A DNA stretch of 64,000 nucleotides from Streptomyces sp. NBC_00259 (GTDB taxonomy: Bacteria; Actinomycetota; Actinomycetes; Streptomycetales; Streptomycetaceae). The position numbers and the translations under genes were made by a program. Shown here piece after piece: positions 40,487 to 43,723 of the stretch; the first letter of the stretch is position 1, and the number at the start of each line of letters is the position of its first letter. The DNA lies in assembly GCF_036181745.1 (NCBI RefSeq), contig NZ_CP108080.1, positions 7,877,501 through 7,941,500 of the forward strand. The letters are read 5' to 3'. The notes under the pieces are model-generated. The model saw nothing but the letters and a program-made list of their open reading frames with translations, searched no databases and was not told the DNA's origin.

Positions 40487-40679
40487 CTACCGCGCCGCTG
40501 AAGGCTGCGGTGTCGAGTGGGTTCCTGCTTCGCCGCGCGGTGCCGGGACGAGTCCCGGTCTTATCAGCGCTCCACAGGCTGACACGGCCAGTCCGGCCGC
40601 CTTGGCTACGTTGACCGCCGCGTTGATGTCCCGGTCCAGAACCGCCCCGCATGCACCGCATGTCCAGACACGAACGTTA
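40487..40679 (-). pseudogene. tnpB: tnpB 3' fragment (zinc-finger and last RuvC part)
   Basis: Read on the minus strand, this piece encodes NVRVWTCGACGAVLDRDIN and AAVNVAKAAGLAVSACGA to the stop at 40487. It supplies the second CxxC pair of the zinc ribbon and the final RuvC Asp (in LDRDIN). Joined across the nested IS to the fragment ending CSQCGVKDGPKPL, with one copy of the TA removed, the frame is exact: KPL-NVRVWTC. The apparent 93-codon open frame reaching to 40768 starts in the nested IS and is not a gene. Confidence 0.85.
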
Positions 40680-40697
40680 GGGCCTGTCCGGCGGATC
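40680..40697. repeat. Left terminal inverted repeat of the IS5-family element
   Basis: GGGCCTGTCCGGCGGATC, an exact inverted match of 42247-42264. It is preceded by the TA target duplication. Confidence 0.9.
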
Positions 40698-40797
40698 TTG
40701 CCAGGCTCTCCCCGAGCAGAGCCGGTGCTGTGGAACTTGACGGTGCTTCCGATCAATTGGGTCGACACCCGTTCCGAGCTGCGGGAAACTCCTCGCG

Positions 40798-41313
40798 ATG
40801 ACTCAACGAACCGACACCCCTCCTACGTGGGACGAGCGTACGCAGCTGGTCACCTTCCTGGACTACGCCCGTGACACCGCGCGAGCCAAGTGTGCGGGCG
40901 TGTCCGCCGAAGACGCCCGCAAGGCCCCGCTCCCGAGTTCACCGCTGATGACGTTGTGCGGGCTGATCGGGCATCTGCGGTGGGTCGAGTACTACTGGTT
41001 CCAAGTGATGTTTCTGGGCGAGGAGCTCGCGGGGCCGCTCACCGAGGCGACCGAGGATGATCCCGACCCTGAGATGCGGACAGCAGTCGACATCCCGTTG
41101 CCCCAGCTTCTTGCCGAGTACGAGGAGCAGAGCGCCCGCTACCGTCGCCTGGTGTCCGACCACGACCTGAATTCAACGGCCAAGCGTCCCACCAGCGACG
41201 GCCGCCACGTCGACCTCCGGTGGGTGATCCTCCACCTCATTGAGGAGACGGCCCGCCACAACGGCCACCTCGATGTCGTGCGTGAGCTCGTCGACGGGCG
41301 GACCGGCGCCTAA
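40798..41313 (+). CDS. DinB-family protein (DUF664 type) carried inside the IS
   Basis: The 171-residue protein has the DinB/mycothiol-S-transferase four-helix signature. WDERTQLVTFLDYARDTARA opens it; LCGLIGHLRWVEYYWFQVMF holds the first metal-ligand His (GHLRWVE), and LHLIEETARHNGHLDVVREL carries the HxxxH-like second site. In actinobacteria such DUF664 proteins are often mycothiol-dependent detoxifying enzymes. The frame is intact. It starts at ATG 40798 with a weak upstream site, and its stop is about 18 bases from the probable natural end of the opposing transposase. Its location between the perfect IS ends makes it a passenger gene. Confidence 0.88.
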   Translation: MTQRTDTPPTWDERTQLVTFLDYARDTARAKCAGVSAEDARKAPLPSSPLMTLCGLIGHLRWVEYYWFQVMFLGEELAGPLTEATEDDPDPEMRTAVDIPLPQLLAEYEEQSARYRRLVSDHDLNSTAKRPTSDGRHVDLRWVILHLIEETARHNGHLDVVRELVDGRTGA

Positions 41314-42216
41314 GACCTGTCGTGCGGGTTGCGAGCGGAGCCACAGCCGGATCGCTGCCACGGTGACTGTGCCGTGGAAGACGTAGGCCCGCTTGTCGAA
41401 CCGCGTGGCCACGGCACGGAAGTTCTTCAGCGCATTGATCGTCCGCTCGGCTTCGTTCCTCCGCTTGTAGATGGTCTTGTCGAAAACGGCAGGCCGTCCG
41501 CCCTCGCTGCCACGACGTTTCCGGTTGGCTCGCTGGTTCTTCGGCTCGGGGATGGTGTGCTTGATCTGGCGCCTGCGCAGGTAACGGCGGTTTCGCCGGG
41601 AGGAGTACGCCTTGTCACCGCCGAGATGCGCCGGCCGGGTGCGAGGGCGGCCTCCGCCAAGCCGGCCGACGCGGACGCGTTCCATAACGGGGATGAGCTG
41701 CGGGGCGTCGCCCCACTGGCCCGGAGTGATCAACAGGGACAGCGGGCGACGGCCGCCTTCACCAGCGAGATGGATCTTGCAGGTCAGTCCGCCCCGGGAG
41801 CGTCCGAGTCCCTCGTCGGGGCGGTGCTGCCGGGGCGTGCGTCCTTTCCCCGGCACCCGCGGGGGTCTTCTTCGCGCTCCGGCAGCGTGCTGGTGGGCCC
41901 GGCAAGTAGTGGAGTCCACGCTCACCATGGACCAGTCGATGCGGCCTTCCGCGTCGGCGTCGGCCAGGACGGACGCGAAGAGCTTGTCCCATGTGCCGTC
42001 CGCCGACCAGCGTCTGTGCCGCTCGTACACGGTCTTCCACTTCCCGAAGCGCACAGGCAGATCCCGCCACGGCACCCCGGTGCGATTCCGGTACAAGATC
42101 CCGTTGATGACCATACGGTGGCCAGCCCAACGGCCGCCGCGCTGCTCGGACTTCGGCAAATGCGGCTTCAGCCGGGCCCACTCCTCGTTCGTGAGATCTC
42201 CCCGCTGCATGAACAC
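41173..42216 (-). CDS. IS5-family DDE transposase
   Basis: The 347-codon frame begins MFMQRGDLTNEEWARLKPHL. It has an N-terminal DUF4096-type domain (GVPWRDLPVRFGKWKTVYER) and a DDE catalytic core: SMVSVDSTTCRAHQ (first Asp), LGGDKAYSSRRNRR (second Asp) and YKRRNEAERTINALKNFR (Glu). The family normally ends near VTVAAIRLWLRS, about base 41335. The remaining 50 or so codons run antisense through the DinB gene and are not transposase sequence, so a normal stop has been lost at the passenger junction. The enzyme may still be active. Confidence 0.88.
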   Translation of the reverse strand: MFMQRGDLTNEEWARLKPHLPKSEQRGGRWAGHRMVINGILYRNRTGVPWRDLPVRFGKWKTVYERHRRWSADGTWDKLFASVLADADAEGRIDWSMVSVDSTTCRAHQHAAGARRRPPRVPGKGRTPRQHRPDEGLGRSRGGLTCKIHLAGEGGRRPLSLLITPGQWGDAPQLIPVMERVRVGRLGGGRPRTRPAHLGGDKAYSSRRNRRYLRRRQIKHTIPEPKNQRANRKRRGSEGGRPAVFDKTIYKRRNEAERTINALKNFRAVATRFDKRAYVFHGTVTVAAIRLWLRSQPARQVLGAGPPVDELTHDIEVAVVAGRLLNEVEDHPPEVDVAAVAGGTLGR

Positions 42217-42246
42217 GCCAACGAACGGATCTCCCGGAAGTCACAT

Positions 42247-42264
42247 GATCCGCCGGACAGGCCC
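42247..42264. repeat. Right terminal inverted repeat of the IS5-family element
   Basis: GATCCGCCGGACAGGCCC, exact complement of 40680-40697, followed by the second copy of the TA target duplication at 42265-42266. Confidence 0.9.
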
Positions 42265-42266
42265 TA

Positions 42267-43290
42267 AGGGGCTTGGGGCCATCCTTGACGCCGCACTGCG
42301 AGCACACCTGAGACGTGGGCTCGAAGCGGCCGATCCGTACGAAGATGCGCCCGTACCGAGCAGCCTTGTACTCCAGCATGTGCACGAACGCGGACCATCC
42401 GGCGTCGTGGACCGACTTGGCCAGGCGCGTGCGGGCGAGTCCCTTCACCGCCAGGTCCTCCACGGCGACCGCTTGGTTCTCGCGGATCAGCTGGGTGGAG
42501 AGCTGGTGGTGGAACTCGCGGCGCGCGTCGGCCACCCGCGCATGCGCGCGGGCGACCTTCAGCCGGGCCTTGTCCCGGTTGCGGGAGCCCTTCACCTTGT
42601 GGGAGAGGGCGCGCTGCGCCTTTTCCAGACGCTTCTCGGCCCGGCGCAGGAAGCGCGGGCTGTCGACCTTCGTGCCGTCGGAGTGGACCGCGAAGTGGCC
42701 GAGGCCCAGGTCGATGCCCAGCTCGGGCGTCGTCTCCGGCATCACCTCGGACGGGCCGGTCTCGACGACGAAGGAGGCGAAGTACCGGCCCGCGCTGTCC
42801 TTGACGACCGTCACCGTGGACGGCGTCGAGGGCAGCGTGCGGGACCACTTCACCTTGAGGTCGCCGATCTTCGGCAGGCGCAGCTTCTGCCCCAAAGTGA
42901 TGGACCAGTGGGCGTTCGCGGTGAACCGGACGGCCTGCCGAGTGTCCTTGCGGGACTTGTACCGGGGTGCCCCCATCCTCGGGCGCTTGCCCTTAAGCCC
43001 GTCGAAGAAGTTCTTGTACGCCGTGTCCAGGTCGCGGAGGGACTGCTGGAGGACGACGGCCGACACCTCGCCGAGCCATGCTCGCTCGGGTGTCTGCTTG
43101 GCCTCGGTGATCAACGTCTTCGACAGGTGTCCGGTCTTCGGGAACGGCATGCTTCACTGCGGGCGGTCTCCCGAGCGCGAAGCGCGTCGTTGTAGACCAC
43201 TCGCGCACACCCGAACGCCCTCGCCAGCGCTGACCGCTGACCGGCACTCGGGTACAGGCGGAAGCTGTACCGAAGCTGCACGCCGATCAT
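42267..43290 (-). pseudogene. tnpB: tnpB 5' fragment (RNA-guided nuclease of the IS200/IS605 element), frameshifted
   Basis: From about 43281-43290 the minus strand encodes the TnpB start (VQLRYSFRLYPSAGQRSALA then FGCARVVYNDALRARETARS). At about 43148 the frame shifts by one base and continues MPFPKTGHLSKTLITEAK. Then follow the RuvC first Asp (ELGIDLGLGHFAV), the Glu (VAVEDLAVKGLARTRLAKS) and the first zinc-ribbon pair CSQCG, where the IS5 element interrupts. So the protein has lost function twice: by frameshift and by insertion. TnpB proteins are guide-RNA-directed nucleases that preserve their transposon. Confidence 0.85.
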
Positions 43291-43355
43291 GATACGCAGT
43301 TGGTCTATGGGTATCGATGAGAACGTTTGCACCGGGTCTTCGCTGTACCTTCCGC

Positions 43356-43723
43356 ATGCACGTCCACTTGGTTTTCGTGACGAAGTACCGGCACTCCGTC
43401 TTCTCCGGACAGCACGTGACGCGGTGCGAGGAGATCATGCGGGCCGTGTGCGAGGACTTCGAGGCCGAGCTGGTGGAGTTCAACGGCGAGGCCAACCACG
43501 TCCACCTGCTCGTGAACTTCCCGCCGAAGGTCGCCGTGTCCAGGCTGGTCAACTCCCTCAAGGGCGTGCCTCGCGCAGACTCCGCCAGGAGTTCCCCGAC
43601 CTCGTCCGCCACTACTGGCGGGCATAGCGCTTGTGGTCCGGCTCATACTTCGCCGGGTCCGTCGGCGGCGCGCCGCTAAGCATCGTGAAGGAGTACATCG
43701 AGCAGCAGAACCAGCCGCTCTGA
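43356..43723 (+). pseudogene. tnpA: tnpA of the IS200/IS605 element (Y1 HUH transposase), broken
   Basis: ATG 43356 opens MHVHLVFVTKYRHSVFSG, the standard start of IS200-type TnpA. The HUH motif NHVHLLVNFPPK is intact. After LVNSLKGV the frame shifts near 43565 and the true sequence continues RRLRQEFPDLVRHYWRA. An in-frame TAG (43625-43627) then replaces the codon expected between YWRA and RLWSGSYFAG. The end, including the catalytic-Tyr helix EYIEQQNQPL, reaches a TGA near 43723. One frameshift and one nonsense codon make it a pseudogene. Confidence 0.82.

Follow-up and report, generated by a model that had tools for sequence, protein, structure and literature searches.

A probable cargo-carrying IS5-family element with a DinB-superfamily gene in Streptomyces sp. 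NBC_00259, and relatives that bear other small genes between similar ends

The window, that is, the whole 64-kb stretch of DNA that was analysed, was taken from Streptomyces sp. NBC_00259 (contig NZ_CP108080.1, positions 7,877,501 to 7,941,500). An element of 1585 bp (40680-42264) was located in it, consisting of an IS5-family transposase gene and a DinB gene between perfect 18-bp inverted ends. As a whole, the element was present once in the 8.16-Mb contig of its own genome. The features of the locus, in window coordinates, were as follows.

40487..40679, minus strand: C-terminal part of the target, a tnpB-type gene; frame continuous across the joined flanks
40678..40679: left TA target duplication, placed by the one-TA joining that restores the tnpB frame
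40680..40697, plus strand: left terminal inverted repeat, the outer and probably recruited end; matches the right end exactly and is also found on DinB elements elsewhere
40698..40797, plus strand: left subterminal region including the DinB upstream region; its gene-proximal part also precedes DinB copies without element ends
40798..41313, plus strand: cargo gene, DinB superfamily, MST type, 171 aa (PF04978, 3.6e-42; dN/dS)
41311..41330, plus strand: degenerate inner end, TA plus 12/18 matching bases; overlaps the DinB stop codon and corresponds to the left-end site of compact relatives
41314..42216, minus strand: gene for an IS5-family DDE transposase, 301 aa when read up to the inner end
42247..42264, minus strand: right terminal inverted repeat; matches the left end exactly
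42265..42266: right TA target duplication, placed by the tnpB frame restoration
42267..43150, minus strand: upstream part of the tnpB-type gene, interrupted by the element

A repeat search of the 64 kb confirmed the perfect 18-bp inverted repeats and the TA duplication (40678-40679 and 42265-42266) that had been claimed in an earlier note on this DNA. The two terminal repeats were the only exact matches of the 18-bp sequence in the 64 kb, with a third site showing three mismatches, and none of 100 shuffled controls reached three matches at up to three mismatches. Together with the flanking TA on each side, the repeats formed a 24-bp inverted repeat (96%). The transposase matched the NCBIfam model transpos_IS5_3 with 275.7 bits against a cut-off of 110, and PF13340 and PF01609 were likewise above cut-off; the ORF as listed extends to 41173, antisense into the DinB gene. 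A transposase above the curated cut-off, short terminal repeats and a duplicated TA place the element in the IS5 family. The TA target is usual in this IS5 subgroup, which in ISfinder terms may be the IS427 type. The same note had described a weaker inner repeat; its 12 of 18 matching bases stood, but its position at 41314 did not, the best placement being 41313-41330 with the TA at 41311-41312. This TA is overlapped by the DinB stop codon, TAA, at 41311-41313.

When the flanks were joined with one TA, a single open frame of 359 aa with the motif CxxC...CxxC...DRDINAA spanned the junction, in agreement with the earlier claim that removal of 1585 bp plus one TA restores the tnpB frame exactly. 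When both TAs were kept, the frame stopped 23 codons past the junction. Based on the motif, we take the target gene to be a tnpB type of the IS200/IS605 kind. The N-terminal part of this target gene lies seemingly in another frame at 43111-43679 of the window and is adjoined by a short tnpA-like ORF, which suggests that the target element was probably defective already before the insertion.

The DinB protein matched the Pfam family MST (PF04978) with an E-value of 3.6e-42 and 144.8 bits against a gathering cut-off of 27. Five histidines (H59, H137, H146, H154 and H157), some of which may bind metal, were invariant among the 10 DinB sequences aligned. An AlphaFold model built from the 10-row alignment had a mean pLDDT of 43.8 and was too poor for use, and phmmer found no match of the protein among PDB sequences at 0.01. 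In the part of the account consulted here, Newton et al. identified mycobacterial members of the DinB superfamily as mycothiol-S-transferases, and a related corynebacterial protein of the superfamily is given maleylpyruvate isomerase activity (PMC6815410). On the basis of these findings and the Pfam MST call, the product is likely to transfer a thiol to an electrophile; the passenger probably conjugates mycothiol to it and is probably a detoxifying enzyme. All 18 of the named element-linked DinB copies (15 distinct) were open frames, and the dN/dS median was 0.17 over 105 pairs of element-linked copies, which indicates purifying selection. One counter-example, L177, had a broken, truncated DinB gene and stood outside the dN/dS set. 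As the DinB frames are open and constrained although many transposases beside them are broken, the cargo seems to be kept for its own sake.

The left half of the element was searched against 392 genomes of the genus and 249 genomes of the family. Among the matches listed, those starting no later than base 7 of the left end were found in 9 of the 392 genus genomes, the own genome included. Among the 249 genomes of the family, two from another genus, G461 and G440, matched from base 1 at 94% and 93%, with decayed transposases, and G401 of a third genus matched over bases 1-372 at 82%. Within loci L001-L033, L005 covered positions 1-1585 at 95.7%, its two ends being perfect and each flanked by TA, while L017 covered 1-1580 at 83%. 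A scan of the genome contigs with the left-end sequence yielded 96 stretches (L034-L129), nine of which had the DinB gene behind the left end. Four of these were complete, with the right end at 1581-1587 bp:

L005/L056: 1585 bp, Streptomyces ureilyticus, one site
L091: 1587 bp, Streptomyces sp. NRRL S-646
L111/L017: 1581 bp, S. pseudovenezuelae, one site
L115: 1583 bp, Streptomyces sp. NRRL S-646

The paired names denote the same site, as shown by identical 500-bp flanks, and strain NRRL S-646 thus has two distinct DinB elements, L091 and L115. Including the window, there were five distinct complete elements with transposase and DinB gene at five sites, all flanked by TA, and the 500-bp flanks had no mutual similarity (blastn, 1e-3). 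Further copies at different TA targets, which the earlier note had named as evidence of a mobile cargo unit, could thus be found at four more complete sites with unrelated flanks. The comparison also supports its claim that the transposase and the DinB gene moved together, since complete units recur at unrelated TA sites. The idea that the left repeat belongs to an independent IS remnant fails for the present moving unit, as this end recurs before DinB elsewhere. In several DinB copies, the transposase or the ends were broken or absent. DinB genes are found apart from such elements too, because copies without element ends exist, some of which may be decayed elements; their alignment to the element starts at about position 57-84. 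On PLSDB plasmids, no complete DinB element was found (304 records matched, in none of which a single place spanned 80% of the query). As a separate observation, a cargo-free IS relative lay behind DinB at L020 in opposite orientation, with a TA at the gene end and a far-side left end with three mismatches. At L121, a decayed DinB-type element appeared to be interrupted at the stop codon of its DinB gene by a nested MITE of a different type.

To survey the relatives, the transposase half was searched against the 392 genomes, and 80 further transposase matches were fetched with their flanks. Loci L130-L257 with a transposase match, three plasmid loci included, gave 120 locus/strand entries for classification. 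Under lenient rules, with compact meaning that the end coincides with the transposase 3' end or lies very close to it, 53 entries were cargo-bearing (window locus included), 26 compact and 41 unclassified. The view that this might be a singular case of a cargo IS is too modest: 53 of the 79 classified relatives bear cargo, in a sample that favours close relatives because two candidates were scored per genome. TA was present on both sides of 40 of the 53 lenient cargo elements and absent from one or both sides of 13. Six of the lenient calls (L233, L181, L205, L221, L222 and L223), all flagged with an inner end, are possibly wrong and lie inside the 53 and outside the strict set; the transposase of L233 shared 98.2% identity with its counterpart in L242, a locus placed among the compact ones. 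Strict rules (left end with at most two mismatches, TA on both sides, no inner end) left 30 elements. For a control, 70 loci whose right end was good and flanked by TA were examined for a second end with at most two mismatches and TA, 250-2200 bp beyond the transposase. A second inverted end was present in 30/70, one in direct orientation in 1/70, and one located outward, past the right end, in 0/63. These 30 and the strict 30 came from separate filters, with 27 strict elements lying within the 70. A transposase tree of 83 rows, built by a quick method with midpoint rooting and with unclassified loci left out, placed the window transposase within a 29-row group (SH-aLRT 99) that held 13 cargo labels and no compact row. 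Larger cargo was found in four unclassified loci and in the second copy of the own genome.

Movement of whole units was indicated by several cases. Cargo-bearing elements identical over 1350 bp occurred at two sites in one genome (L149/L237, G090), and the same was observed over 1709 bp for L186/L187 (G317). An element of 1677-1678 bp recurred with 99.9% identity at four TA sites whose flanks were unrelated (27-42%), on two plasmids of NBC_01369 and two plasmids of NBC_00826. One of the NBC_01369 plasmid sites was common with NBC_00825, where the element was 100% identical. The plasmid records annotate only an 'IS5 family transposase' and an adjoining 'hypothetical protein'. Within each cargo cluster, no flank match longer than 60 bp in 500 bp was found between any two members. 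The passenger gene is unrelated to transposition and lies within the same pair of ends as the element's own transposase, and the unit, judged by comparison, moves as a whole; both features agree with a transporter IS. The window copy, of which there is one in its genome, may itself be active at present.

The cargo was diverse. Comparison by tblastx sorted the 53 cargo elements into 30 clusters, 12 of them recurring; the number is approximate, as the cluster of L220, L225, L227 and L228 merges two different genes and L233 is doubtful in the P-loop cluster. From the clusters, 33 cargo ORFs were chosen by codon-position GC and by eye. A Pfam match was obtained for 14 of the 33, and none for 19. 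The matches comprised MST, DUF6624, AAA_33, TipAS-MerR, DUF6506, Imm7, Ribonuc_L-PSP (RidA), TetR, an ArsR-type HTH, GNAT, alpha/beta hydrolase, SnoaL_2 and methyltransferase, together with DinB_2 below the cut-off. For 10 cargo proteins, all without a Pfam match, NCBIfam gave no match, and PADLOC on 10 cargo proteins gave two weak matches, both to the P-loop protein of L160. L205 and L223 have a putative cargo beside a related transposase, with TipAS and MerR domains in L223 (Pfam) and a homologous gene in L205; in both, the left end is without TA and less secure. L211 and L250 have, as putative cargo, an immunity protein of the Imm7 family, assigned by Pfam for L211, and no toxin gene was noticed beside it. 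L259, from another family of the class, has similar ends and an ORF that appears to resemble the P-loop cargo of L201. A weaker case from another family, L282, is a distant IS5 relative with different ends and a glyoxalase-like ORF (named by eye) between the transposase and a possible second end.

Cargo and transposase did not always share one history. Among 46 same-cluster pairs, the DNA identity of the cargo was within 3 points of that of the transposase in 24, higher in 12 and lower in 10. Third codon positions were compared in 16 pairs, of which seven were tested (Fisher). The cargo was more alike in L149-L151 (108/116 vs 224/301 for the transposase, p=9.9e-6) and in L152-L176 (143/170 vs 210/301, p=5.7e-4); L150-L176 agreed with the latter and is not independent of it. 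The result was weak for L190-L195 (p=0.018) and not significant for L161-L194 and L147-L164. Elements L220 and L228 had the first 46 bp (91%) and the region from the cargo 3' end through the right end (92%) in common, with unrelated centres. An exchange of cargo between lineages of the transposase thus seems to have taken place, with good support in at least one instance. A further type was represented by L292-L295 from four genomes and by L296 from the own genome, with left ends 1722-1777 bp from the transposase and cargo genes that we take, from their sequence, to be TetR-like and SDR-like. Their cargo was 93-97% identical, while the left flanks were 44-51% identical, which is the level of unrelated DNA. 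L296 (contig 1, about 6,967,106-6,969,620) is a second, decayed element of the window group whose transposase has a central deletion. A match to the DinB C-terminus lay beside the transposase in three of L292-L295 and in L296, and this adjoining remnant suggests that an older cargo was replaced in the TetR-SDR type.

Such a remnant would also be expected if the entire sub-lineage had started out with DinB as its cargo and other genes had later replaced it, and DinB relatives do recur as cargo (the window type, the L156 type, and L249 with DinB_2 below the cut-off). In the pair of the window locus (L147) and L156, however, third positions agreed in 59.5% of the cargo and 70.8% of the transposase (p=0.014). 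A cargo that differs more than its transposase suggests separate acquisitions of DinB, and a single ancestral DinB cargo seems unlikely.

The structure of the compact relatives bears on how the element arose. Short copies without the gene, the comparison proposed in the earlier note, do exist, and in most of them an intact end occupies precisely the site of the window inner repeat, with an identical four-base spacing to the transposase. In the corresponding slot of the 53 cargo rows, the inner bases were above background and the outer bases near background, as expected if a far end took over and the inner end lost its tip. The window inner repeat is atypical of the cargo rows in that 7/9 of its outer and 5/9 of its inner bases match. 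Units resembling MITEs with the same 18-bp ends (58-288 bp) were found at 23 of the 96 loci, 11 of them with TA on both sides, and a 33-bp palindrome made of two ends at 22. As these units and palindromes are common (in Streptomyces, Actinacidiphila and Kitasatospora, among others), potential second ends are abundant, and the left end of the window element may first have come from a MITE-like unit, since the same end also bounds such units. The suggestion that a short IS recruited a second end beyond a neighbouring gene fits the inner-end remnants and the end position of the compact relatives, the route itself being inferred.

According to the proposed route, a compact IS would have adjoined the 3' end of a gene, and a like-sequence end beyond that gene (MITE, solo end or IS remnant) would have taken over as the outer end while the inner end lost its function. 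The DDE transposase would then use two 18-bp ends, one near its own start and one past the passenger gene, so that transposase and gene could move jointly into TA sites. The outcome would be a sub-lineage in which every classified member has cargo, usually one small gene and of many kinds, retained for its own function and sometimes exchanged. Another source of the outer end may be considered, namely two inverted IS copies that flanked the gene, one of which decayed to its end. The left starts of L166, L215 and L246 do resemble the IS right end (ATGTGA after the repeat). The window left end, however, continues with TTGCC, unlike its own right end (5/26 bases), and tblastn of the transposase against the window locus gave a single match. 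Such a composite origin is improbable for the element; it may have supplied some ends, and would not describe the present working of the unit. A composite transposon proper was rejected, as two flanking IS copies are absent and the left end is unlike the right beyond 18 bp. That a compact IS5 element came by chance to lie beside an unrelated MITE or solo end, with DinB between them and never co-mobile, could draw on the frequent MITE-like units (23/96 loci, 11 of them with TA on both sides) and is very improbable, given that whole DinB units recur at unrelated flanks, that relatives with other cargo recur identically, that the direct-orientation control gave 1/70, and that removing the entire 1585 bp plus one TA restores the tnpB frame. 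The element is thus very probably a cargo-carrying IS5-family element, or transporter IS, with its own transposase and, probably, the recruited-end history proposed above.

With many close relatives that hold other small genes between similar ends, the group looks like a family of single-gene shuttles. In the sample, the slot held one small gene or a regulator-enzyme pair of about thirty kinds, including a thiol transferase, RidA, an acetyltransferase, a methyltransferase, regulators, an immunity protein and many uncharacterized proteins. We regard it as an even chance that this IS5-type sub-lineage is a modular gene shuttle of the Streptomycetaceae, with shared ends and an exchangeable slot, in which cargo would be swapped by recombination, reach both chromosomes and plasmids, and persist once the transposase has decayed. 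If so, its role would resemble the one that integron cassettes have elsewhere among bacteria. What seemed a single odd element belongs to a family by which individual genes are moved in antibiotic producers, a possible route of spread for small, functionally uncharacterized Streptomyces genes. The ends are short enough to escape annotation, as the plasmid records show. How a simple IS becomes a gene carrier is now a testable question, because compact, cargo-bearing, swapped and decayed states coexist in one genus.

Siguier, Gagnevin and Chandler reportedly dealt with transporter IS of the IS1595 family in 2009, judging by the title of their work. In a transporter IS (tIS), passenger genes with no relation to transposition form part of the IS copy, and the part of the source used here treats it as an accepted kind, in line with the earlier remark that cargo IS are known in a few families (PMC3129680). 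The window element resembles tIS in having such a passenger gene inside an IS copy; it differs from the IS1595-family elements, as far as those are described there, in its IS5-family transposase, its TA targets and the many different genes found in one slot. Modular IS231-MIC231 elements of the IS4 family in the Bacillus cereus group, some with extra DNA, are alike in having putative passenger genes in this extra DNA (PMC2266710). In the excerpt consulted, their genes lie between the left end and the transposase gene, whereas here the cargo lies beyond the transposase 3' end and replaces the outer part of the former inner end; transposase family and hosts also differ. Mobile insertion cassettes (MIC) and MITEs are described, in the portion of the source seen, as having the same kind of ends without coding for mobility (PMC3129680). 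Their ends are alike and are a possible source of second ends; the window element has its own transposase, which they lack, and it is therefore not a mobile insertion cassette. A compact IS annotated IS1648 on the Streptomyces coelicolor plasmid SCP2 has a homologous transposase, similar ends and TA flanks, but no cargo, its left end lying directly behind the transposase. In integron cassettes, many small, mostly single and often uncharacterized genes are served by one mobility system, there by an integrase and attC sites in an array, and here by a DDE transposase and inverted ends with one slot. Among the titles listed in searches of the open literature, none dealt with passengers borne by Streptomyces elements of the IS5 type. 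The kind of element is thus already known from tIS and modular IS231, and its IS5-type version in Streptomyces appears, judging from the titles listed, to be a new variation of it.
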